The translations under genes were made by a program, and so were the position numbers. This document shows positions 1,638 through 64,000 of a stretch of 64,000 bases of DNA, piece after piece. Origin of the DNA: Camillea tinctor (taxonomy: Eukaryota; Ascomycota; Sordariomycetes; Xylariales; Xylariaceae); contig MU394072.1 of the NCBI GenBank assembly GCA_022578605.1, positions 310,001 through 374,000 of the forward strand, in the 5' to 3' direction. The stretch's first letter is position 1; every line of letters starts with the position of its first letter. Below the pieces are notes generated by a model. The model had not been told where the DNA came from, did no database searches, and worked only from the letters and a program-made list of their open reading frames with translations.

Positions 1638-4421
1638 ATGTCTGGTAAGCCCACTACCCGCAGAGGCTCTGCGACAGGCGGCGGGGCACGAGGTGCAGCG
1701 AAAGCGTCCTCCTCGTTGCCCGCCGTTCCTAGCCGGACTACCCGCTCAACTTCCTCCCTTCAATCTACTAGCCAATCTCTAACACACACAACCACATCTA
1801 AAGGTGAGCCAGAGCCCCGTCGATCCGTCCGTGCCACCAAGGGCCAGCACACGAAGGCCTTTGATCTCGAGAATGGACCCGAGCCCCCGAAACGACGCCA
1901 GACCAAGAAGACCAACAAGAAGGCTACCGAGAAGGAAGAGAAGCAGGACGAGGACGAGGAGATCATCCGGTGTATATGCGGTGCTGTGACTCAAGATGAC
2001 GACGACGCCAACGAGCCGTGGATTGCCTGCGATAAATGTGGTGCTTGGCAACACAATGTCTGCGTCGGTATGAGCGTTTTCACGGAGGATTTAACTAAGG
2101 ATTATTTCTGCGAGCAATGCGCCCCCGAAGACCATAAAGTCACTCTAGAAGCCATGAAGAAGGGGGAGAAGCCGTGGGAAGATCGGAGGCGGAAGTACGA
2201 AGAGGAAAAGAAGCGTAAGAAAGGAGGCAAGAAGGGGAAAGGAAAGCGTGTAAGTGATCCTAAAGATCGAGATCGCGCATCGCCGAGTGCGTCGAATGCG
2301 AAAGCGAAATCATCACCCACTCCAGATGTCAAGAAGGAGGAGCCTATCCCGGAACCCTCTTCAGCCAAGGGCAAGCGGAAATCCCACGACCATTCCCAGG
2401 GGCCACACAGCAAGCTTCGCAAGGTGTCGGATAACCAAGCAGCGCCAGCTTATCCAGCTTACACCCCACCTGAGGACCTACCGGAGAACATCCAAAAGCT
2501 CGAGGGCCCTCGAAGGCAAGCTGCACTTGGCCTGCAAAAGTCACTTGATAGCGCCATCGAGCAAGCCGAGAAAAAGAAGCTATATGCCGTCCCTCAGGCC
2601 ACCACCAAGAAGAACCTTTCCGAACGCCTGGCTATTGAAATCGAGCGTGCCTTTCAGGACACTCATTCCAACACCCCACACAATGCCTCCCAGTTGCGAA
2701 CTCTGGTTTTCAGTCTGAAGAACAACGTCGAGCTGGCTGCCCGCGTGTTGAACCGATCCCTGCCTCCTCCTTCATTTGTTATCATGACAGGCGACGAACT
2801 TGCTACTAAAGAATTGCAGCGCGAGAATGCAGAAATGAAAGCTCGCGCTGACAAACAGTCTATTCTAATTACGGAGGATGGTCCTAGAGTCCGACGAACA
2901 CACAAGGGCGAGGAGGTTGTGGAAGGAGATAACTTTGCTATTGCTACAGACGAGGCGCCATCTAATCTTCGCCAGCAGAGTGCTCGAGAAGCAGCTGAGG
3001 CCGGAAACAGTGCCGAGCCAACCGGTTCGTCTAGCAACGATGTTGAGCTGCCCGCAAACGCTGCCCGCAGGTCCTCTTCTGGTCCTCTCCGTGTCGACAC
3101 CCAGGTGCCTCAGCATTCCCCGAAAGCATCAGACTTTGACATCGGCAAGGTCTTTTCGAGTGTGCGATCGCCATCATCCTCACACCAGCGCCGCGCCTCG
3201 ACTCAAGTAAGGTCAGCTGGCCCTGGAGACGACCCCGAAGTAGATAGACTACTTCAAGATGATGGCAACGAGTCTCCGCCCTACTCACCTACTGAAGATA
3301 TCGATCCAGATATTGTCTGGCGGGGGCCATTAACCATGACCAATGTAGCTGATATACCTACGGTTGCGAAGTATGTTGGTGGTGCTGACCTTAGTAGAGT
3401 AAGGGGGATTCCGTGGAAGGATTTGATACCTCCGCTTCTTACTGTTGCTGGTCGGATTCCGGAAGAGAAGGCGGTGCCATACCTTTGTGGTCTCAGATAC
3501 AACAACCAGATTGACCTAGTCATCACCAGCCTTGCCCCGGCCAATCCCAGTGATGAATCGGCAAGGAAGCAGTTCACTGCTGTCATCGATTATTTCCGAT
3601 CCAAAAAAAGATATGGCGTCGTGGGAGAAAGAAAACTTGGCAATGTTAGAGACACATACCTAGTGCCTGTCCCGGAAGGTGATGGCCCTATTCCAGAGCC
3701 AATGCAGAACATCGGCGACCACATGATTCCTCTAAGGCGGACTGAGCCTATGCTACTGATGGTTTTTGTTGTCCGCGATGAAAAGCAGAGCCCGATTCCT
3801 GTGGACCAACAAAGGACCGAAGTACAGCACACCCCATCCACTACTTCTGCTCAGCCTACCCCTATACCTTCTAGATATTCATCGGTGTCGGGACCAACTT
3901 GGTCGCCTGCGACACCGCAAAATCCTTATAGTCATCCCGATTTCCGGTCACCCCCACCACCTTATAGCCAAACGCCGATACCACCCCCCAAAATTCCGGG
4001 ACAACCAGCTCCACCAATGCCGCAGCGTGTGCCTCCCCCACCGGTTGCGCCGGCACCAGCTAACCAGGATCTTAACGTCAATGCCATGCGTGCAGCACAG
4101 GCAGAGGGCGAATTAAAGGCTCGCCAAGTCCTTGGTCCTCTATTTGGTAGCCCTACAGTGACTTTCCTTTTGCCGCATGCTGCTCGTATGAAGGAAGGTG
4201 AATGGAGTGCGGTTCGAAGGTGCTTTGAACGCGATCCAAGAGCTCGTGACGACCTTCAACTTCTCAGCAAGCTCCTTACGGAGGAGGGTAACAATGCACG
4301 GAAGAATGGTCAACCACCTCAGCCTCATTCGGGATCCCCCGGTGTTGTACAAACAACTCTTGCGGCTGCAACAGCCAGCATGCCGCCGGACAATGTTCAA
4401 GCTCCTCAGCCTAAGGCTTAA
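1638..4421 (+). CDS. bye1: BYE1-like transcription regulator (PHD finger, TFIIS central domain, SPOC domain)
   Basis: Single-exon gene of 927 residues. Family knowledge: yeast Bye1 binds RNA polymerase II through its TFIIS-like domain and H3K4me3 through its PHD finger, acting on early elongation in the nucleus. Seen here: a Ser/Thr/Lys-rich N-terminus; a PHD finger from C112 (CICG) to C161 (CEQC) with the usual Cys/His spacing; a Lys/Glu-rich basic stretch at about 175-205; a TFIIS-M region from about 290 to 430 (RRQAALGLQKSL through HKGEEVVE); a SPOC domain from about 558 to 713 (begins DIVWRGPLTM, ends LLMVFVVRDEK); then a Pro-rich tail and a short conserved-looking C-terminal segment. The start at 1638 is the first in-frame ATG of a long clean frame. 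The order PHD-TFS2M-SPOC is diagnostic of the family, so I am confident of the class. Which histone mark it binds in this fungus is inference. Confidence 0.93.
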   Translation: MSGKPTTRRGSATGGGARGAAKASSSLPAVPSRTTRSTSSLQSTSQSLTHTTTSKGEPEPRRSVRATKGQHTKAFDLENGPEPPKRRQTKKTNKKATEKEEKQDEDEEIIRCICGAVTQDDDDANEPWIACDKCGAWQHNVCVGMSVFTEDLTKDYFCEQCAPEDHKVTLEAMKKGEKPWEDRRRKYEEEKKRKKGGKKGKGKRVSDPKDRDRASPSASNAKAKSSPTPDVKKEEPIPEPSSAKGKRKSHDHSQGPHSKLRKVSDNQAAPAYPAYTPPEDLPENIQKLEGPRRQAALGLQKSLDSAIEQAEKKKLYAVPQATTKKNLSERLAIEIERAFQDTHSNTPHNASQLRTLVFSLKNNVELAARVLNRSLPPPSFVIMTGDELATKELQRENAEMKARADKQSILITEDGPRVRRTHKGEEVVEGDNFAIATDEAPSNLRQQSAREAAEAGNSAEPTGSSSNDVELPANAARRSSSGPLRVDTQVPQHSPKASDFDIGKVFSSVRSPSSSHQRRASTQVRSAGPGDDPEVDRLLQDDGNESPPYSPTEDIDPDIVWRGPLTMTNVADIPTVAKYVGGADLSRVRGIPWKDLIPPLLTVAGRIPEEKAVPYLCGLRYNNQIDLVITSLAPANPSDESARKQFTAVIDYFRSKKRYGVVGERKLGNVRDTYLVPVPEGDGPIPEPMQNIGDHMIPLRRTEPMLLMVFVVRDEKQSPIPVDQQRTEVQHTPSTTSAQPTPIPSRYSSVSGPTWSPATPQNPYSHPDFRSPPPPYSQTPIPPPKIPGQPAPPMPQRVPPPPVAPAPANQDLNVNAMRAAQAEGELKARQVLGPLFGSPTVTFLLPHAARMKEGEWSAVRRCFERDPRARDDLQLLSKLLTEEGNNARKNGQPPQPHSGSPGVVQTTLAAATASMPPDNVQAPQPKA

Positions 4422-5375
4422 CAAACTCTTCTAGTTTGCTTATAATCCAAACCTCACATCATGTTAGGATACACCTTCATGGCCAATGGATTCACATCGA
4501 AAGCATTTCGAGTCTGTTATGGCCCATGGTTCTGAGGAATTGTTGCGAGAAACTGGTTGAATGCCGAAATGACTTGTTTGAGTACTTATAGATGCTACAT
4601 GATGGCGTTGAATGAGCCAGGAGGGAATGGTTATCTTTGTCTTAAAAGCTCCGAGATAGTGCTGACTTTAAATAAATGAGGCTCTGTTGTACAGTGAGGG
4701 GGGCCTCCCTTTCACGTGTATAGGAAATAGGATGATGTATTTAATTCGGAATCAGAAAAGTACAATATACCCAATCACCCATTTGCGGTGCGTTAAATGT
4801 GAATTTTATGACATAGATAGTGATGATGTTATTGCCATTTATTTGACAAAGATATTCCGTCTTGATTATGGTACAGGTACCTTTATTGTTGCTGTTCTAA
4901 CCTAGTAGAATCTTATGTGTATAGATAAGTACAGTCACTTACAGCCCCTTGATCCTTAGCGACTAGAAATATCAACTGATCTGTGAAGTTGGATGTAGAC
5001 TGATATTTATAAAAATGACACTCAGCTGCCAAGTTGGGAACGGTTGTTTACCCCTGACTAGTACTCCAGCCAATAGGGGGAAGTCGAGACTGTTGTGCCT
5101 AAATATGCCTTCAGCCTTGGAACTACCCCCCCATTAAGCCCTAATCTATCCATTCCCGTTAGATGTAATATTACATCTTCAAGTGACAAGAAGTGTTTAC
5201 CTACATATCGATATGCGGATACGACATTTCCCAAGCATCTCTCATCATAGGCGCAGACGAGCAGGAGGCTAGTGCTAATAAATCCAACGTACCTTGGGCT
5301 TCCCCCGAGGTACCAGCTCGAATCTATGAATCTTCCACTTACCTGAGTCTTGATATCAATTTTCTTCTCCCATCT
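4422..5375. other. Intergenic region, BYE1-like 3' side to NIS1-like 5' side
   Basis: This holds the 3' flank of the BYE1-like gene and the promoter of the small secreted protein gene. Only short, AT-rich open frames without family resemblance are present. No RNA gene or repeat is recognised. Confidence 0.5.
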
Positions 5376-5993
5376 ATGAACATCATGTGGTTCCCCAGCA
5401 GTGCCACGGCAGCCACCATCCTCGCTGCCGGAACACTCGCCCACGCGAGACTATCCAAGATCGGAATCCCCCAAACCATCAAACCGGGGGACGTCTTCAA
5501 CGCTACCGTGCAGCAGCTCGCGGGGTCCCCGCTCCAGTATACCATGATCTTCGGCGTCGAGCGGTACGACAACGAGTGGTCCGAGGTCCCGCACCCCGGG
5601 AGCTTGGGGCCGGTACTGCTGGCTACAGTGGACTTGCAGCGTGGGTTTAACCTAACCTCCCCTATCCTATCCTATCCCATCCTCACCTCTCCTCTCTTAA
5701 CCTATCCTGTCCTATTCACTTCCAAGGCCAGTCTAACATTAGCTCCAGAAACCGTCGGAAACGGCACGAGCAGCGAAAACTCCACCATCCCCGGGCTCCG
5801 CGTGCCAGAGGACTTCGCCCCCGGCCCGGCCGCCATCCAGGCCGTGGTGCTGGGCGTCGCGGGACCTCTGAACACGCCACTGCTCGAGACGTGGTGGTGG
5901 GGCGTCAATATAACGAACGCGACGAGCGAGAGGAGGAATTGGGCGAGTTACGAGGATGATAATTCGAGGGTGTGCCAGATTCCGCTGAACTAG
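5376..5993 (+). CDS. Small secreted protein, NIS1-like (putative effector family)
   Basis: Two-exon model: exons 5376-5640 and 5743-5993, intron 5641-5742 (GTGGGT to ACATTAG, 102 bp), giving 171 residues. The N-terminus (MNIMWFPSSATAATILAAG, cut near AHA/RLSK) looks like a signal peptide. The mature start ARLSKIGIPQTIKPGDVFNA and the later segment with an FAPGPAAIQAVVLGV stretch and several NxT sites resemble the NIS1 family, small beta-sandwich proteins secreted by many fungi and reported to damp plant immune kinases. The length is right for that family. The intron is in frame and stop-free, so a retained form (adding 34 residues of PILSYPILTSP-like repeats) cannot be excluded. Frames open upstream of 5376 add a non-secretory extension and were not used. 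The family call rests on pattern memory only. Confidence 0.55.
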   Translation: MNIMWFPSSATAATILAAGTLAHARLSKIGIPQTIKPGDVFNATVQQLAGSPLQYTMIFGVERYDNEWSEVPHPGSLGPVLLATVDLQRGFNLTSPILSYPILTSPLLTYPVLFTSKASLTLAPETVGNGTSSENSTIPGLRVPEDFAPGPAAIQAVVLGVAGPLNTPLLETWWWGVNITNATSERRNWASYEDDNSRVCQIPLN

Positions 5994-6687
5994 ATTGCTC
6001 GTGGTTGGGGGGGTAAGGTTGGGTTCACGTTCGCGGGAACATTTGGGTGCCCGGGGTGGTGGCGAGGTAATCAGGATTCAGAGGCAAAAGTACGGGCTTC
6101 GTAGTGTGGTGTATGATACGAATCAAGCTGTGGTATATGATAGTTGAGTCAGGCAGACGCATGAAATAGTGCTTATTATATCTCGTGGAGATGTCTCTCC
6201 GTTACGTATCCCTCTCCCTTTTCATTTGTCATGCTACCTCTAGACCTTGAGATTTTTATCGTTAGTCCGGGTCTCTTCTACCCCTGGCATTTGAGGACAA
6301 GGCCACGGGTCTATGGCATGCCATGTTATGGCACAAAATATAGACGCTGTGCAACACAAGACTACCTGCGGTGACATCGGATAACTATTGCTAATCTTGT
6401 CCCATGCATAAGTACGTGTTGGTTGAATAAAATGCAAATCTTGCTATCAGATGGGTTATGGGGTTTCTTTCTTTTCAATGTCACATAGATTCCTTTCTCC
6501 TCGCCCCGACACTCCCCCCTCCTCACTTCAAGATCCCTTCTGTTAAAGCCAGGAGACTCTTCTGAATAAACTGTGATAGCCATAAATGGATACTTTGAAT
6601 CCGCTGTGAGTATATTGACTCTATAGATCTATAATTGGAAGAAGTGATAGTAATGCTTAGAGGCAGGACTGAACAAATTTTCTCATT
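5994..6687. other. Intergenic between convergent genes
   Basis: This is the 3' flank shared by the NIS1-like gene (+) and the FunK1 kinase gene (-). No supported gene, RNA or repeat is seen in it. Confidence 0.5.
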
Positions 6688-8514
6688 CTATAACACCTTT
6701 CTTCTATCCACAGAACTAATGGCCTCTTCGAAAGCGCAGATCATTCCATCGTAGAGCTTGTCTACAGCTTCGGGCGAGCTGTCGGTCCCTGTCCAAATTA
6801 CGCCATCCCGTAGGGGAAATAGAATTTGGCGTAGACTTTCGGCGAGTGGCTTAACGGAGTGGAATTCGGGAGTAAATTCCCCCAAAATAGTCTGAAACCC
6901 ATTATGATCCATGTCAAGAGATTTGCGTACCGCTAGTTCGTCCCAGTCGCCATTACTCCATTGTCGAAGCCGGCTTGTCTCTGGGGGGTCCTCCGCATGG
7001 TTCGTTATGATTGTCCAGAGGAAAACATAAAAGAACGACTCTAGGTCGTGACGATAGGTATGATATTCACTCTTCAGAACGCCAATAGCCATAAATGGTC
7101 TAGTGCCGGTAATGTCAAGCTCTGTTCCTGATCCTTCGGCGAGCTCTACTGCGGAATCGAGGTCTATCAGGATCCCTTGGGGCTCTCCTTCATCTTGACC
7201 ATCCAGAATGATCATGTTCCCGGGGGAAATATCTTGGTGAAGAATTTTGGCGTTGTAACAAAGCGATCGGTGACACTTGATAGTATCACGAAACACTTCA
7301 AGCAACTCCAAGAGGGACTGAAAAGTATTGAGAGGTCTGCCGACAGGAGAAGTAACGATGCAAGCAAGAATACGATTTTGAAAGAAGTTATCGGTTTCTT
7401 CTGTATATTCAATGAGTCCGTCAGCGTTGCAAGTAACTTCCTGTCGTTCCTTTTCGATACTTCCCTTTCTCTGGCGAAACTGCATCCTAGCGAACTTTCT
7501 TTGTGTCCCCCACCGGAGACCTCGGCGTAGATTTGCTGTACTTTCAATTTCTTCGTAATAATCAAGGGAGACGGCACCCCAGGCGCATTTCATCTTGGCT
7601 AGCTTTAGAAGCTCGTCCTCCGGACGATCCCTAGCCCAACGCCATTTGAACTTTAAGACATAGTTCCATCGATTTGAATTAGGCATTTTAGCCCGGTAGC
7701 AAGTTGTCCCGGTGCCAACAAGGTCTTCACGGGACGCGATGGGCTGGCTTTCGAGATAAAGCTTCCCCAAAGAGGGCATCACAACACTATCAAGAATAAT
7801 GTAGCTACCGCCCTTATCAGTCTTAATGATGTTGGTTTTCCCCAGGTCCTGATCCGTCATCCGCTGGTAGCTGAGAATAATAGAGAGGAACTGGACAAAA
7901 TCTTTCTGAACATCGAACAGGTCACTACAATATAAGCCAGATCGATCAAAGACCCAAAGTTCGATCAGCGAACCGCGTATGTAGAAGCCATGTAAAAAGA
8001 GCCGCGTAGGCTGGCTAGCGAAGACCTGGTGTGCGGCCCGACAGAGGCGCAATAGTCCATCCTGATAACAAACGCAACCACGGTGGTAAAACTGACCAAT
8101 AACCTGAACATGGTCCCATCTCGCCTGTACGTCGGAGGCTGGAGAAGTGGGCATGGTCAAGAGAAGACGTGCACCGTCGTCATCGCTCTCGTGCTTGGGT
8201 GCTCGATTGTCGCTAGATACAAGCCACGAGCCTCGCGCGCCGTCAAGCTCCCGTGATACGTAGTTAGAAAACCATTGTAGGAAAGTATCCGGTGATGGGG
8301 CAGCTGGTGGAATGGCACAGCGGCCACTAACTCTTCCGCCTGCCTGAATTTCCAAGAAAGCATTTTGGTGGACATATTGAAAGTTGCCGAAGTGTTTTTT
8401 GATAAATCCGTTCATGGGGCCGTGCATGCGGCCGTCTATGTTGTTAAGGATATCCTGGTCAGAGACCGGTGGAGCTGGCAGATGATTTACCGCCGTGGGA
8501 TTCTCCATGGTCAA
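6688..8514 (-). CDS. Fungal-type protein kinase (FunK1 family)
   Basis: Single-exon frame of 608 residues. FunK1 kinases are a fungus-specific, fast-evolving kinase-like family; substrates are generally unknown. Seen here: a long N-terminal half with the FunK1-type accessory region; an ATP-site stretch (GTGTTCYRAKM near residue 270, then YVLKFKWRWA); the catalytic-loop equivalent ILHQDISPGN with H426-Q427-D428 and N433, where the usual HRD is HQD; the metal-binding equivalent IDLDSA with D451; and the family-typical GTRPFMAIGVL...YRHDLESFFYVFLW block downstream. Catalytic Asp and Asn are kept, so activity is possible. The start at 8514 is followed by a second ATG two codons later. Convergent with the NIS1-like gene. 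Confident of the family; function unknown. Confidence 0.88.
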   Translation of the reverse strand: MTMENPTAVNHLPAPPVSDQDILNNIDGRMHGPMNGFIKKHFGNFQYVHQNAFLEIQAGGRVSGRCAIPPAAPSPDTFLQWFSNYVSRELDGARGSWLVSSDNRAPKHESDDDGARLLLTMPTSPASDVQARWDHVQVIGQFYHRGCVCYQDGLLRLCRAAHQVFASQPTRLFLHGFYIRGSLIELWVFDRSGLYCSDLFDVQKDFVQFLSIILSYQRMTDQDLGKTNIIKTDKGGSYIILDSVVMPSLGKLYLESQPIASREDLVGTGTTCYRAKMPNSNRWNYVLKFKWRWARDRPEDELLKLAKMKCAWGAVSLDYYEEIESTANLRRGLRWGTQRKFARMQFRQRKGSIEKERQEVTCNADGLIEYTEETDNFFQNRILACIVTSPVGRPLNTFQSLLELLEVFRDTIKCHRSLCYNAKILHQDISPGNMIILDGQDEGEPQGILIDLDSAVELAEGSGTELDITGTRPFMAIGVLKSEYHTYRHDLESFFYVFLWTIITNHAEDPPETSRLRQWSNGDWDELAVRKSLDMDHNGFQTILGEFTPEFHSVKPLAESLRQILFPLRDGVIWTGTDSSPEAVDKLYDGMICAFEEAISSVDRRKVL

Positions 8515-44023: not shown

Positions 44024-46367
44024 ATGCTCTGCAATGTTTGCCGTGAAGGGCTGGAAGGAATATGGGATCCAGACCGAACAAAGCGTCTCGGGAAACTTGA
44101 AGACTTTTCTGAGATTATAGATATTCAGTTTCAAGACCCCGAGGAAATAGGTGAGTGATAGCATTCTCGACCAGCGATTCGGGATCACGTCATCTCTCTA
44201 AGTCCATGAAAATATCTCGTTATCCGGATATCTAACATTCCTATACCTAGATAATGTAACCCTTCTAGAAGTGGAAAACTACGTTTTCGGCCATCACACA
44301 AGCTATGATTCTCTTCTACGGTCTAAAAGGCAGGGCTGTGTCGCATGTAACACATTTGGGGAATCGAATGACGCCGATGACTTGAATCTGACCTTCGCTG
44401 CCTTTGGGTACTATTCTGTGTTTTGTATCGGTCTAGAGAGAAAAGATCTCTATCCTCGGCCATTAATGCTCATATACACAGGGGATCCTATAGAAGAGAT
44501 ACCTATTGAAATGATACCGCACGATAGTAAGTCAAGATACTCGTTCATCAACCGGTTCTGGGTGTGGCTACAAGAAGAACATATGGTAACATTTTATCCT
44601 ATCTCACCAGCCAAAGATTTCATGAACTCAGCTCTCTCAACATCGACTGCATCCCCTGAGACTTGGACTTTGGTGCAGAACTGGTTGAATGAATGTCTTT
44701 CCAAACACGAAGCATGTCATGCTCGTTTTATGCGCCTGGGCCCAAAGGATGGCTCCTTGTTCTGCCCTACGCGATTACTCGAGCTTCAAACCCCCCCTCC
44801 TCTTCCGATCCCACCTCACCTCCGTTCAAATAAATGGCCAGAGCTTACATCTACATATTTCCGTCTCGTTGACAATACTCAATATCCCGCCAATGTCAAA
44901 TACGTAACCTTGAGCCATTGCTGGGGCCCCGGGCCCGCTCACGAAAAACTTCGCCTGATAAAGTCCACCGAGAGCAAGCTGCGCAAGGGAATGCCTGTAT
45001 CGGACTTACCACGGACCTTCCGCGATGCTTTCGAAATCGTATCCCGCCTTGGGGTGCGGTACCTGTGGATCGACCGGCTTTGCATCGTTCAAGACTCGGC
45101 GGCTGACTGGGCCGCTGAGGCCGGGACCATGAAGGGGGTGTATCGAGGGGGGTTCCTCAACATCGCCGCGCTAGGGGCAGCAGACGACGAGTTCGGCTGC
45201 TTCGTTGAGCGCGACCCGAAGATCGTGGGACCGGGTCTAGTGAACCTAAGGCCCAAAGACAGATTACCAATGTACTATCGGCATCCGGACGAGGCGACCA
45301 AAGGGTGGAAAACAGCATTCTCGAGTGGCCCGCTTATCGGGCGGGCATGGGTCCTTCAGGAGCGCCTTCTCGCCACGCGTAATCTGTATTTTGGCCGGAG
45401 CCAGGTCTTCTGGGAGTGCTGCTCGAATACGTGCTGTGAGACATTACCCACGGGACCACTTGTGAAGACCCATGCCCTAGCGAAGGATACAGAAGCTGGC
45501 TCCAAATACTCCAAGGTAATGGAGGGGCTCTATTCCGCTTGGAAATCACTAATTGATGTGGAAAACACCGCCGGCGGGCCTAGTAGCGACCCATTAGTAA
45601 GTCTCATGGGCGAATGGTCGAAAACTGTCAATATATACAGCAGTTGTCACTTATCTTTCACGGATGACAAGCTCATAGCTGTCTCGGGACTTGCCGAAGA
45701 TATGCGCAGTAAGCTCAAGGTCCTGAATCCAGATTATGGCGATTACATTGCCGGCATGTGGAGAGTAAGCTTACCGAGATGTCTAATGTGGACCGTGATG
45801 GGCCCAAGCGAACGACCAACGCCGTATCGCGCGCCGTCATGGTCCTGGGCATCAGTAAAGGGGGTTATCAGTTTCCCTAAAATCAATACTGGCGATTGCC
45901 TTGTCAGTGTTGATACCGTGGAGATCATAAATAAAGGAGATGGCGTTACCGGACAGGTCATCGGCGGCCTGATCACGCTTCGGGGACCGCTTTGCATATC
46001 AAGAGGCGCCCGCCGGTCGAGGACGAGCAGTTCTTTATATAATCGCCACATTGCACGGCAGCTTCACCACCTCGATACCGACGAACTTCTTGATCTTCCA
46101 TTTAATAGCATTGATATTCACTTCGATGCCTCGGACGATCAATATGACGAGGTAACCCTCCTACTATTTTGGTCCTGGAGCAGCCCTATGCCGGTTATGG
46201 ACACTATTCATGGACTGGCGCTGGTCCGATCCGGGGGGTCCCGCAGCTCTTACCTTCGTGTAGGATGTGTGAAAATAACTGTTTATTTTGACGAGGAAGA
46301 CGAGAGAGACGACTGTGTCTCTCGTTTCTTAAAAGACTGCTCAGTTCAGACGATTGAAGTTGTATAG
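44024..46367 (+). CDS. HET-domain (heterokaryon incompatibility) protein
   Basis: Two exons: 44024-44150 and 44251-46367, intron 100 bp (GTGAGT to CCTAG), 747 residues. An alternative acceptor at 44268 is also in frame and would drop six residues. HET domains are TIR-like modules that trigger cell death when incompatible fungal cells fuse. Seen here: an N-terminal Cys pair (MLCNVCREGLEG) followed by DSLLRSKRQGCVAC, typical of the sub-group with a leader before HET; and the HET domain from about residue 259 (YVTLSHCWG) through LPRTFRDAFEIVSRLGVRYL and WIDRLCIVQDS to about 370 (FLNIAAL). The long C-terminal region carries the usual GRAWVLQERLLATRNLYFG and YRAPSWSWASVKG motifs. It is apparently intact. 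The trigger partner is unknown, and no adjacent NLR or SNARE partner is present; the NACHT/ankyrin relic lies ~28 kb away. Confidence 0.93.
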
Positions 46368-55272: not shown

Positions 55273-58200
55273 ATGGATAAAAAACTTAATCCGATCAACG
55301 CTGCTCAGCGTGGCCTTCTCATGAGACCCGTGTTCGGTCAGATCTTGACCATAACCCTCAAACAGCAAGACAGCCAAACGCAGAAAGCACTTATTCAGAT
55401 CATCCAAGACCTGGACAATGATATCATGAAGAACCACGCGGACGACTGCGGCTTAATTGCTGCCTTTTCTCCGGCGCTCTGGGGTCAATGGACAGGCCGG
55501 AGCATCGACATCTCAACCACGGTCCTCGACCGTGGTTACAATTTTGCTAATACTGGCGGGGATGCTTTGATCTATATCAAGTCCCCCGACCACAAGACAG
55601 CAGCAATGCTAGCAGCGTCTATATTTCCATCATTAGAGCCGCTTGTCACTGCCACAGGCATTGAGGCTCTTGAAGTGGGCAAGCGCCCCGATGGCCGAAT
55701 CAGTGAGTAATTTTCAGAGTCGTTTACTTCTCCTTTTGACCTGTCTTGGGCCGGTGTAGGAGTCAAAATTTCCTATCATAATTAAGCGTATAAGTTTTTA
55801 GGAGTTTTGAATCTTAAAACAATAGGCTCAAGAGCGAATAAGTTATCTAATATGGCAGTTACTGACTCCTAATGTTGTAGTGGGTGGCCGTTATGTCGAT
55901 CATATCAGCAACCCTAATGATCCTATCAGCTTAATCGAAGATATCCTAGTTCCTGGTTCTGACCCTTACTGCGGTGCCACTTTCGGCATCACACAGAAGT
56001 TTGTTTTCGACTGGCCTGACATTGCCTCACAATCCGGCGACGCCCTTGACGCCGTGATTGGGCGCAGGCCGGATGGTGAGGTGATCTCTCAGAACGCCCG
56101 TAATGCTCATATTCACCGTGCGCATATTCTGGACGACAATCATGATCAGAGGAAACTACTTCGTCAAGCTTTGCCATTCGGAGAGTCAAAGGGGCAGGCT
56201 AGTCGTGAAGAGGGTCTCATGTTCGTGGCCTTCTGCAACGACCAGCAGAGGTTCGAGAATATCTTGCAGAACATGGTTGGTGATCGTCCGGAGAGACCTC
56301 TCGATCGTCTGATGGATTTCATTCAGGGTACCGGCGGCAGTTACTGGTATGTCCCATCAGCGACTGAGCTGGGGATCACTAGTGTTAGTATTGGAGATGA
56401 TGTGTTCGAAGATCCACATTGGGCCGTTCGTAGTCCCAATCCTTATCTTTTCTACAATTCGCAAGACTATATGCACCGTATGGCAAAGGAGTCATCCATT
56501 GAAGGTGATTCTCCCAGTGTCCGCATCTTGAGCCTCGTGTCAAGAACGCTCTCTCATTGGCGGGATGGCTGGATGACAAGGAAGCATTTTCCACGCTTGC
56601 CGCATCTCAAAGAGCAAATTTCTCAGGAGAATATCCCACAGTCAATCCTTGAGCGCAAGGGCCTTGCTAATCTTCTAACGCTATCTGATCTGCTTTCCTC
56701 ACCAGACTCCGTTATCGCGCGGGACACTGGCTTGACTCGCATCGCAGCCAAGGAGTTGATTGTTGGCGCAATCCCTGATTTCTCTCTAGGAAGGGGGAAA
56801 GAAGTTGTCCCCTATCTGGATGAAGATGAAACCATGGCTGCATGGTTGAAAGCATCACTTAATGAGTGGTCGGCTATGGGACATGTCGTGCCTAACTACC
56901 AAACCCTGGTCGGTAAGGGCCTAGCGGCAATGGTCACGGATCTCGACCAACGGAGAGAGGAAGCTCAACAGCAAAAGGATGATGCCAAGGCATCTTTCTA
57001 CACCTCTGCGAGAGATTCTATCAAAGGTGTTCAAAAATACCTTGCGAACTGGGCAAAGATTGCTCGCCAGGCGCATGATCGAACCATTGACGTGGAGGAC
57101 AAAAAAAGCCTGCAGACTGTCATTGATTGCCTAGAACACCTTGTGAATGACGCACCCACCAGCTTCCATGAGGCGGTTCAGCTGATCTTCTCTTTCCACT
57201 GCTGTCTCCATCTTGTTGGAGAGCTCACATCCTTCGGCCGACTCGACCAGATCCTCTGGCCCTTCCTCAAGCGGGACATCGAGGCAGGTAGCATTACGCA
57301 AGGTCGTGCTCAGGAGATAGTAGACTGCCTCTGGATCAAGATTGGCGAGAACGCCTTCGTCAACCGCGCGTTTATCTACGACTACGGAACCTACGGCACT
57401 ACGTCCGTGTGTGGTCTCGGCGGGAACTTCCCCCAGGGCGGTGGCATCAACCAGTGGGTACAGCAAGTCACCGTGGGCGGGTACACGGCCACGGATGCAG
57501 AGTCTCCAGTAGACGGGGCCAATCCTGTCACTCTCATGTGTTTGAAAGCAGCACGCCGCATCCCCGTCAACGCCCCTAGCCTCTCGTTGCGTGTGAACAA
57601 GAGCATACCCAAGGAATATCTCGATGAAGCGGCCAAGGCGATCCTAGCTGGCGGTGCACAGCCCATTCTCTACAACGATGATAGGTTGTGTGAGGGGCTT
57701 TTCCAATCAGGTGAGACCGTCACTCGTGCCTGGTCCCGCGACTACGCAGCGGACGGGTGTTATGAGCCGATGATGACGGGCGCATCGGAGTTCACGTTCG
57801 GTAACGTCACCCCCATGTTGGCGCTGGAGCAGACCCTTAATCAGGGCTCAACCTACGGCGACGCAGGACCGGTGTATCTCCGTGGCCTGAAACAGACGTT
57901 CCGCTCCCGTCCCGCCTCTGAGATCGCCTCCTTTTCCGAACTCCAGGACATCTTCCTTCGTCAGGTCTCCTGGCTTGTCATCCAGACCTACAACACCCTT
58001 CTTAGCGCATATGGCAATCTTGAGGGCATATGCCCGTCGCCCATGCTGTCCGCACTCCTCGACGGCTGCGTCGAGTCGGGGCGCGACCTAACATCCGGTG
58101 GCGCAAAATTTCATATCAGTGCGTATTCTTCTCCCGTTCATCGTCATAATCCTATCCAAGTACTACTAACCTAATCTCATACCTTCATTAAATAGTTGCC

Positions 58201-59253
58201 CCACTATGCGTTGGCGTAGCCAACACGATCGACTCCCTCTACGCCATCAAGAAGCTATGCTTTGACCCGGTAACTGCGCGCGCCACGCTCCCGGAGCTGG
58301 TGCGATGCCTCATCTGCGACTGGGGCTTTGGCATGATCGAACCATACCAGGATGCCAGCCTAGGCCCTGCCCACGCGGCCGAGAAGGCCGTGCGGTATAA
58401 GGAGCTTAGGGAGGTGGCTCTGGGCCTGCCAAAGTGGGGGAGCGGTGACGAGGACGAGGAGCTCCGGGAGCTCGGGACGTGGCTCGTCGACAACCTGGCG
58501 CGCCTGTGTGTGGAGACCATACGCAAGCCGGCACCGGCCCTCCAGGGTGCGCTAGACGCGATCCAGAAGAAGTACGGCCCCGGTTTTGAGTTCGTGGTGA
58601 CGCCCGGCATCGGGACCTTCGAGGGCTATGTTGGCGATGGCATCGTCTGTGGTGCGTCAGCGGACGGCCGCCGGAAGGGCATGCCCATTGCATCAGACCT
58701 CTCCCCCGCCCCAGCGGCGCAGGTAAGTTTCCAGAGTTGTCTTCTTCCTCCATCAAGCTTAAGTTTACGAGTGGATTACTCCCCACGATTTAAACTTAGC
58801 TATTCATTCCCTTTGTTCACATCGAATATCTGCTTCTGGTATTCAATTGTCGTTGATGCCATATGACGGAATCACTAACTCACGAACGTAAAATAGGATC
58901 TACCCGCGGCACCGGTGCATCGGAATATATACCGCGCGATGGAGAGCTACAAAGGCGAGGCAATTGGGATCAAGTTCTCAAACGCGACGCCGATCGACAT
59001 GAACATTCCAGAGAACTTCCCTCTAGACGAGCTGCAGCAGTTCCTGGCAGACTATGCGCAAGGCAGGGTTGGAGGAAACCTGCTCACTCTCACTTGTGCC
59101 GATCTCGAGACATATCAAAAAGCTTCGGAGGATTCCGAGAAGTATAACCTCCTTCGTGTTCGGATGGGTGGATGGACAGAATTCTATGCTACCATGTTCC
59201 CGGATTATCAAGAACAGCAACAACGAAGGCAGTATTTCGAGGCAAAGGAATAA
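55273..59253 (+). CDS. Fusion: DyP-type haem peroxidase domain + glycyl radical enzyme
   Basis: Four exons: 55273-55702, 55881-58118, 58196-58722 and 58897-59253; introns 178, 77 and 174 bp (GTGAGT, GTGCGT, GTAAGT donors); 1183 residues. Residues ~1-305 read as a YfeX-like DyP peroxidase: AFSPALWGQW; YVDH (D150) in place of the GxxDG motif; CGATFGITQKFVFDW; probable haem-ligand H220 in NAHIHRAH; distal R238 in LLRQALPFGE; and a closing GTGGSYWYVPS. From ~330 a full glycyl radical enzyme follows: helical N-part; SLRVNKSIP; active-site C770 and E772 (DGCYEP); GVANTIDSLYAIKKL; LPKWGSGDED; ADGRRKGMPIASDLSPA; and a C-terminal glycyl loop LLRVRMGGWTEFY with predicted radical G1157. The CxE signature resembles dehydratase/lyase/decarboxylase members rather than pyruvate formate-lyase, which uses CC. 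Substrate unknown. No targeting signal is clear. A separate radical-SAM activase would be required and is not in the window. Haem and radical chemistry are inferred from motifs. Confidence 0.88.
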
Positions 59254-62349: not shown

Positions 62350-64000
62350 CTATTTCTTCTTTCCAGTGATGGGAGCGAGAATGGACCCAAGTCCAAGACC
62401 GTCTAGGACCTTAGTGAGCCCGAGTCCGCCGAGGAGGTTGTTCACTAGACCTCCCAGGCCCAGGCCGTTGAGCAGCTTTCCGACGAGCCCCAGTACACCG
62501 CTTAGCAGCAAGCCGACGGCGGCGAGAATCTGGAAGAGCGGCTCGGAGAGCAGGCCCCAGAGGGGGTTGATGCCCTTCTTGGCATGGGGCATGTCCTCGA
62601 GCTTGCGCTTCGCGTTCTCGATGGTCTCGGTCACGGTGCCCGTGAGTTCCTTGAGCAGTTCCGCGAGCCGGTACTCCTCCGGTGTGGCCTCGCGCGCTGC
62701 CGTCTTGTGCTTCGCGTTGGCCGAGATGCGACCGTCGGGGTCGAGACCCCGGATCACGCCGTTGGCCTCCGTTAGGATCTTGCCGCCCTCCTCGATCAGT
62801 GGGCGTACCTGCTTCACGAGCTCTTCCTCGTCGCGCTCGTCTTCGGGCTTGCGCTCCTCAGCGTCGATTCTCTGTGCGTGTGTGTTAATAGACTTATTCA
62901 TTCCACAAGTGGTAAATCGTAAGTAGGTGGGGGTTGGTAGCACTTACGTCGACAATCATCTTGCAGATCGGCTTGATCTTGTCGAGCGACTGCTCGATAC
63001 AGAAGGCAATTTGGCCGGCGATCTTGCGGTCCTGCTCCTGTTGCAGGCGGGCAGCTTTCTCATCCTCGCTCTCCTCGGGTTCGGGTTCGGGCTCAGGTTC
63101 GGGCTCCGGGATCTCCTCAAGGAGAGAGCAATGACCGAGGGTAGTGCCCTTTTGGTCGACGACATCGCCGTCATCATCAATCTTCTTACCCGCGCATTGG
63201 CTTAGAATGCCGCTCGTAAGTTTACCCATGATGTCGCCGTTCTCGTCAACGACGTTACCCTCACGGTTAACCTTGCGGCCAGACATGGGGTTGATGTCCT
63301 TGGGGACCTCGGGCTCTTCCCAACGTTCCGCATGACCAAGAACGTTACCGTTCTTGTCACAGATGTCACCATCATCATCGACAGGGCGACCATAAAGGAC
63401 CTTCGGATCACCAGAGACCAAGCGACCCACAACGTCTCCACCTGGGGTGACCACCTTGCCCTCCTTGGTGACCGTGCAGCCAGGAAGTTCAGTGAAGGGG
63501 CCTTCTTTCATGCCCTCACGCTCGGCCTCGGGGATCAACTCACACTTGCCGATGACATCGCCGCCCTCGTTCCGGATGAAGCCATTCTTGTCGCACATCT
63601 TGCCAACTAGGCGCTGAATATTGCCCTCGATGACGCGACCGTAGATATCGCCGTGCTTGTCCACCGCGTTTCCGGCCTTGTTGATGCGCTTGCCGGCCAA
63701 AGCAGACATGTCGATTTCGGGCTCAGGCTCGGGCTCTTCGGGCTCCCAGCGCTCAGCGCGGCCGAGAAGATTGCCCGCCTTATCTAGGATATCACCGTCG
63801 GCATCAACTGGCTTGCCCTTGAGCTTCTTAGCGTCGCCCTCGACGACAATACCGATTTGCTCCCCATTGGAGATAACCTTGCCGTCATCGCCGACGATAG
63901 CATCAGGGAAGTCCTCGAACGGAGATGGCTCCTTGACATCTTCCCGCTCGTTGTCCGGGAGGGGCTCTGCCTTACCAATCACCTTACCAGCATCGTTGAA
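62350..64000 (-). CDS. DUF3659/LEA-like repeat protein (partial, continues past the window)
   Basis: Minus-strand, 5' end missing: exon 62948 to beyond 64000, intron 62947-62872 (76 bp, GTAAGT to GCACAG), last exon 62871-62350. The frame remains open to the window edge (FNDAGKVIGKAEPLPD), so no start is given. The visible ~525 residues contain repeated modules built on GKPVDADGDILDKAGNLLG and GRRVNxxGNVVDENGD-like units, often ending in GHAERWEEPE or GKCELIPEAER. This pattern is typical of the DUF3659 repeats found in long fungal proteins often annotated as LEA-domain proteins. An EPEPEPEPEPEE linker precedes a helical segment (IAFCIEQSLDKIKPICKMIVD). The C-terminal end is a Gly/Leu-rich hydrophobic region (LLSGVLGLVGKLLNGLGLGG). 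Role uncertain; structural or stress function is inference. Confidence 0.88.

Follow-up and report, generated by a model that had tools for sequence, protein, structure and literature searches.

A fused dye-decolorizing peroxidase as a possible activase substitute for a glycyl radical enzyme in Camillea tinctor and its bacterial relatives

What would make the radical in a glycyl radical enzyme (GRE) that shares one polypeptide with a haem peroxidase? The question is raised by a stretch of 64,000 nucleotides from the ascomycete Camillea tinctor (contig MU394072.1, positions 310,001 to 374,000; here called the window), in which a forward-strand gene at 55273–59253 encodes an N-terminal dye-decolorizing peroxidase (DyP) and a C-terminal domain related to pyruvate formate-lyase (PFL). 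Our analysis confirmed that this gene is a true fusion of a DyP-type haem peroxidase with a GRE of the PFL/glycerol-dehydratase type. From comparison with its relatives we tentatively favor the reading that the DyP domain replaces the radical S-adenosylmethionine (SAM) activase, which would make the protein a peroxide-primed radical enzyme.

The rebuilt gene model consists of four exons and three GT–AG introns, all on the forward strand, and encodes 1183 amino acids without an internal stop. Exon 1 (55273..55702; residues 1–144) carries the first part of the DyP domain, and bacterial relatives align to it from their own start codons. Intron 1 (55703..55880, GTGAGT...AG) is followed by exon 2 (55881..58118; residues 144–890), which encodes the remainder of the DyP domain and most of the GRE barrel. 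Intron 2 (58119..58195, GTGCGT...AG) and intron 3 (58723..58896, GTAAGT...AG) flank exon 3 (58196..58722; residues 890–1065), and exon 4 (58897..59253; residues 1066–1183 and the stop) holds the predicted glycyl-radical loop. The three predicted splice junctions are supported by homology: all are ungapped in an alignment with four single-frame bacterial proteins of 62–63% identity. The initial annotation had proposed a DyP–GRE fusion with one continuous exon spanning the second part of the DyP domain and the GRE body, completed by the flanking exons, and this arrangement held in the rebuilt model.

Profile searches recognized both domains in the 1183-residue protein. TIGR01413 (DyP) matched residues 24–307 with 127 bits, above its curated cut-off of 100.5, and the Pfam model Dyp_perox_C matched residues 148–304 (78.4 bits); the N-terminal DyP model of Pfam had no match in the fungal protein, and this region is covered by TIGR01413 instead. 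The PFL-like model PF02901 matched residues 466–992 (56846..58503, crossing intron 2) with 360.1 bits for a cut-off of 24.3. In the 44.7 Mb fungal genome PF02901 and TIGR01413 each identified one locus, the fusion gene. The Gly_radical model (PF01228), which had also been expected to match, found nothing in the fungal protein or anywhere else in the C. tinctor genome. Every NCBIfam GRE subfamily model scored under its cut-off (TIGR01774, 213.7 bits versus 678.2). We rejected an assembly chimera, as the same architecture occurs in seven bacterial loci from separate records. PFL proper (formate C-acetyltransferase) was rejected as well: TIGR01255 reached 28.7 bits versus a cut-off of 994.2, and the protein has a single Cys followed by Tyr-Glu, whereas the active site of PFL proper is Cys-Cys.

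The initial annotation knew of no described protein with this layout, and in this respect it was incomplete. The available part of PMC5041501 (2016) describes a DyP_B–PFL fusion in Chaetomium (C. cochliodes / C. globosum), with fused relatives in prokaryotes and other eukaryotes, and suggests that the gene moved horizontally between proteobacteria and ascomycetes; what the fusion signifies is described there as elusive. A similar gene, g1956, is given for Xylaria grammica in the accessible text of PMC8469222. As far as these sources go, the Chaetomium and Xylaria fusions agree with ours in domain content and order, in having an ascomycete host and fused bacterial relatives, and in a proposed proteobacterial origin. 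The Camillea protein, set beside the Chaetomium protein by description only, fits this layout, with DyP at the N-terminus and the PFL-like domain at the C-terminus. Published descriptions from both ascomycetes and bacteria thus show that the layout is already known and that it did not arise in fungi; a fungus-specific invention was considered and rejected. The available parts of PMC9064869 and PMC4420034 do not mention a PFL fusion, and our searches of the open-licence literature listed no work on the function of a DyP–GRE fusion. Measured against the accessible portions of PMC5041501 and PMC8469222, three things are new here: the search of host genomes for activases, the changes at the radical sites and an unfused DyP–GRE pair from Hymenobacter.

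A scan of genome contigs returned five loci, four of which are full fusions whose GRE parts show 65–66% identity: Paracidovorax anthurii (L011), Andreprevotia (L012), Pseudomonas cichorii (L013) and Collimonas humicola (L014). Over the whole protein these are 62–63% identical to the fungal sequence. A Planctomycetota match (L015, 27% identity), an incomplete GRE lying at the end of its contig, was left unused. Among 399 genomes from the order to which Collimonas belongs there were four matches, namely two query hosts, a new divergent full fusion (L071) and an apparently decayed copy (L072). In the phylum of P. cichorii (E 1e-30), 17 of 398 matched: the query genome, a new full fusion (L101), a piece with two stops (L104) and 14 others that matched over the PFL-like part only. 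The class to which the L101 genome belongs (E 1e-60) gave one match in 385, that genome itself. Two plasmid records were found, a fusion of 1326 amino acids in Asticcacaulis sp. AND118 (L139) and the unfused pair of Hymenobacter cellulosilyticus (L140). None of 49 pattern stretches from viral contigs encodes a relative. The fusion is thus rare and scattered in the sampled genomes.

L072, with an apparent large internal deletion, and L104 both look like decayed fusion copies; the fusion therefore appears to have been lost as well as gained. Two small unrooted trees, one for each half, both place the fungus on the branch that leads to L071 and L101, the divergent pair, and they disagree on Collimonas. 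At the level of these trees, joint inheritance of the two halves does not appear to be contradicted, and we claim nothing further from them. The fungal gene probably came from bacteria; donor and direction rest on the available text of PMC5041501 rather than on our own tree.

Downstream of the fusion, two of the four named bacteria have similar frames that carry an RHVEAHP motif and by eye resemble a histidine phosphatase (after 5050 in L011 and after 12376 in L012), and a gene annotated as a non-haem iron enzyme of the SUMF1/EgtB/PvdO family is directly upstream of the Asticcacaulis fusion (L139:6387–7391, +).

Seven full fusions (the fungus, L011–L014, L071 and L101) were aligned, and the motifs of Asticcacaulis L139 and Hymenobacter L140 were read separately. 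In fungal numbering, 258 of 1183 positions are invariant. In the DyP half these include H220 (56108..56110), which stands at the same alignment position as in solved DyPs and which we take to be the proximal haem ligand, and R238 (56162..56164), presumably the distal Arg. D150 of the GRYVD motif (55898..55900), which we assume to be the distal Asp, is Asp in six of the seven and Glu in L071; by eye, this position is also Glu in Asticcacaulis. A VPS motif (residues 301–303) closes the domain. The initial annotation had placed H220, R238, the VPS motif and C770 correctly. The whole-domain profile match and the His/Arg/Asp motifs are shared with type-B (P) peroxidases such as DypB, from which the fusion DyPs differ by being tethered to a GRE and, in L071 and Asticcacaulis, by the Asp to Glu change.

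In the GRE half, C770-Y771-E772 (57758..57766) is invariant, a Tyr here separating the Cys and the Glu that are predicted to be catalytic; the fungal GCYEP aligns to GCVEP of choline trimethylamine-lyase. The predicted glycyl-radical loop R1152-V-R-M-G-G1157-W1158 (59155..59175) stands at VRVAGY of the same enzyme, and the C-terminus aligns around the Gly; its GGW is invariant, as are R1152 and G1156. Asticcacaulis has GCYEP and RMGGW, and Hymenobacter GCYET and RMGGW. Thus, Tyr follows the catalytic Cys and Trp follows the radical Gly in nine of nine DyP-linked GREs. For comparison we fetched 20 stand-alone GRE loci, nine from the phylum survey (L102, L103, L105–L111) and eleven from plasmids (L141–L151), leaving unreadable motifs uncounted. 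Tyr after Cys occurred in none of 13 readable loci and Trp after Gly in none of 15, where the motif read RVAGYS in 14 and RIGGCS in one (L142). The PFL2/glycerol-dehydratase-type GREs (choline trimethylamine-lyase, diol and glycerol dehydratases) share the PFL-like barrel, the Cys-x-Glu pair and, by prediction, the C-terminal Gly loop; the DyP-linked proteins differ from them in having R-x-GGW for RVAGY, GCY for GCV/GCI, a fused or adjacent DyP and no neighboring activase gene. Cys-x-Glu is tied to eliminase-like chemistry in known GRE families, and the pair suggests a reaction of this kind rather than PFL chemistry.

These data bear on the possibility that the GRE half has given up radical catalysis and serves another purpose, for instance as a ligand binder or scaffold, leaving DyP as the sole catalyst. 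Such a loss of function would accord with the unrecognized Gly_radical region of the fungal protein, with the activase not found in several hosts and with the existence of decayed fusion copies. However, H220, R238, C770, E772 and G1157 are kept in all seven fusions although identity falls to 36–39%, so that Cys, Glu and Gly of the GRE are invariant throughout; between the fungus and the four named bacteria, identity is higher in the GRE half (67–68%) than in the DyP half (53–55%), and the C-terminal GRE piece of Hymenobacter does pass Gly_radical, narrowly (22.7 bits versus a cut-off of 22.2). We regard a non-radical GRE half as improbable.

To describe the neighborhood of these genes we used an activase-type motif, a restricted CxxxCxxC pattern that other small radical-SAM enzymes can also fit. 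It was absent from all eight bacterial DyP-linked stretches (L011–L014, L071, L101, L139 and L140), which extend 6–10 kb on both sides except in L011 (1.5 kb on one side) and in L071 and L101 (1.1–1.5 kb). It was present, once each, in 10 of 11 stand-alone plasmid GRE loci, hand-picked out of 43 matching records and covering 4–5 kb (shorter on one side of L149). All ten are annotated as activating proteins or enzymes; eight adjoin the GRE and two, in Enterococcus records, are three genes away. A bacterial operon with a hidden activase was considered and rejected. The plasmids of Moraxella osloensis (L141) and Acinetobacter towneri (L144), which we take to be aerobic genera, carry the same cassette of GRE and activase, and their activases share one protein accession.

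On the H. cellulosilyticus plasmid the GRE is spread over two overlapping frames. The DyP gene (PF04261 and PF20628) starts 11 bases past the second of these, and an overlapping continuation frame also matches PF20628; the frame splits are either real or sequencing errors. This DyP gene occupies the position that the activase gene has in stand-alone GREs, as in the Moraxella and Rahnella controls. By its motifs it looks to be of another type than the fusion DyPs, and the GRE lineage may therefore have paired with a DyP more than once. The same GRE lineage is linked with a DyP whether fused or adjacent.

We extended the search to whole genomes of the bacterial hosts: G001–G004, which carry L011–L014, G209 with L071, G635 with L101, and G239 with a decayed copy. 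The radical-SAM model PF04055 had 12, 13, 16 and 12 matches in G001–G004 (53) and 16 and 10 in G209 and G635 (26). The cysteine motifs of all 79 were read and putative families named, and 16 were checked by profile; at 1e-25, neither L051 nor L067 had a match among the NCBIfam families. This survey, together with the profiles, found no GRE activase in the draft genomes G001, G003 and G004, that is, in three of six bacterial hosts, all three of which presumably live aerobically. TIGR02493, run on G000–G004, had no match at E 1 in G001 and weak ones, all identified by place, in G003 (QueE, a PqqE-like and an HxsB protein) and G004 (MoaA-like). TIGR02494, run on G000–G004, G209 and G239, had none in G000 and G001 and only weak matches at profile positions 39–107 in G003 and G004; G635 was outside both searches. 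The other three hosts have only an activase-like enzyme with another likely partner: in G002 this is PflA, with a canonical PFL about 600 bases away, in G209 an NrdG-like frame that adjoins an NrdD-like frame (named by eye), and in G635 an AmmeMemoRadiSam enzyme (TIGR04337, 640.9 bits). G239 has an activase beside its own PFL. By PF02901, the fusion is the sole PFL-like GRE in five of the six hosts.

In the fungus seven radical-SAM loci were found, which are MoaA-, LipA-, BioB-, viperin-, TYW1- and ELP3-like, and L009. The viperin-like protein (L006:1063–2169, −) scored 243.3 bits with NF038283 (cut-off 180) and 335.2 with TIGR04278 (cut-off 450). L009 (1459–2480, −, two exons seen) is the only activase candidate that we found in this genome; its best profile is TIGR02495 (44.0 bits, cut-off 131.15), followed by TIGR02493 (34.1 bits, cut-off 231.75). 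We take it to be PflX-like. It may be the putative PFL activase that the accessible part of PMC5041501 names in Chaetomium and proposes to activate the fusion.

L009 brings in the main rival explanation, above all for the fungus: an ordinary GRE that a separate radical-SAM enzyme (PflX-like in fungi) activates in trans, while the tethered DyP removes peroxide and guards the radical. Gly, Cys and Glu are conserved as this explanation expects, the fungus has its one remote candidate, and the available text of PMC5041501 not only proposes a putative PFL activase but reports dyprx mRNA in Chaetomium to rise 3-fold with H2O2 and 18.5-fold with peroxyacetic acid. Yet neither three of the six bacterial host genomes nor the surroundings of the eight loci yielded a GRE activase, and the radical loop is changed to R-x-GGW. 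A guard of this kind would remove H2O2 and give no protection from O2 itself, which is the usual killer of glycyl radicals. We consider trans activation with a DyP guard rather unlikely.

A DyP acting as activase substitute would be the simplest account of the DyP link, the Tyr and Trp at the radical sites and the unfound activase. The reading is supported by the activase not being found beside DyP-linked GREs and by the DyP sitting in its place in Hymenobacter. From the gene content and conservation described above, we infer that the DyP domain would bind haem and form Compound I with H2O2 or a peracid. The oxidizing equivalent, an electron hole, would then pass along aromatic residues within the one polypeptide until it reached the GRE domain, where the catalytic radical could form on C770 via Y771 or on the G1157 loop via W1158, the two sites exchanging. 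This radical would drive a Cys/Glu-type reaction, perhaps an elimination or a related one, on a presumed small substrate in aerobic cells. Among the roles suggested by the initial annotation, control of the radical by redox state comes nearest to this scheme, whereas shielding of the radical, which may still apply, would leave unexplained that no activase was found in half of the bacterial hosts tested. The closest parallel, as an analogy only, is class I ribonucleotide reductase, in which an O2- or peroxide-using cofactor makes a thiyl radical via aromatic residues, and in which an O2-dependent radical generator replaces the glycyl radical of class III; the fusion would differ by using haem instead of a metal pair, on a different barrel enzyme.

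The two halves could also be independent activities fused for co-regulation, the DyP oxidizing an aromatic compound and the GRE acting on the product or elsewhere, without radical transfer from one to the other. In favor of this, the two active sites are conserved, and the substrate range of DyPs is broad according to the available part of PMC5041501. This arrangement would leave unexplained both the missing activase and the Tyr and Trp found beside the radical sites of DyP-linked GREs only, and we hold it to be unlikely.

Several observations weigh against the DyP as activase substitute. The Novosphingobium sp. PP1Y plasmid Mpl (L142) has no activase motif within 5 kb of its GRE and no recognized DyP, so the lack of an activase neighbor is not unique to DyP-linked GREs; its stand-alone GRE frame (4395–6890, +, 831 aa, radical sites GCLGV and RIGGC) is perhaps another unusual GRE. 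The activase-like enzymes of three of the six bacterial hosts could moonlight on the fusion, and draft genomes can miss activase genes. L009 is a remote candidate in the fungus, and a putative PFL activase is named for Chaetomium in the accessible text of PMC5041501. The loop retains its Gly, for which an enzyme of class I type would have no strict need, and induction by peroxides fits a protective role equally. An AlphaFold2 model of the Collimonas fusion, built from four sequences, was too poor to use and was discarded (mean pLDDT 31.6, pTM 0.26).

Elsewhere in the window, a HET-domain gene lies at 44202–46364 (+) and a protein with four DUF3659 stretches at 62899–64000 (−). HET and fungal-kinase genes in the window make the organism look like a filamentous ascomycete, in agreement with the initial annotation.

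More cautiously still, we think it possible that these proteins represent a GRE-fold lineage that works in air without a radical-SAM activase, in which a fused or adjacent haem peroxidase makes the radical from H2O2 via the Tyr and Trp beside the catalytic Cys and the radical Gly. Even if this bold reading fails, a GRE with intact radical sites in hosts without a detectable activase is a sharp and testable question left by the 2016 description. If the reading is true, it adds a further way of delivering a thiyl radical to the GRE barrel; the ways already known are the glycyl radicals made by radical-SAM enzymes and, in class I ribonucleotide reductases, metal cofactors. GRE chemistry could then enter aerobes and fungi with the transfer of just one gene. 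GREs perform some of the hardest C–C, C–N and C–O bond chemistry, limited by O2 and a fragile activating enzyme. A GRE with its own peroxide-driven activator would open this chemistry to aerobic use and join two textbook routes to enzyme radicals.

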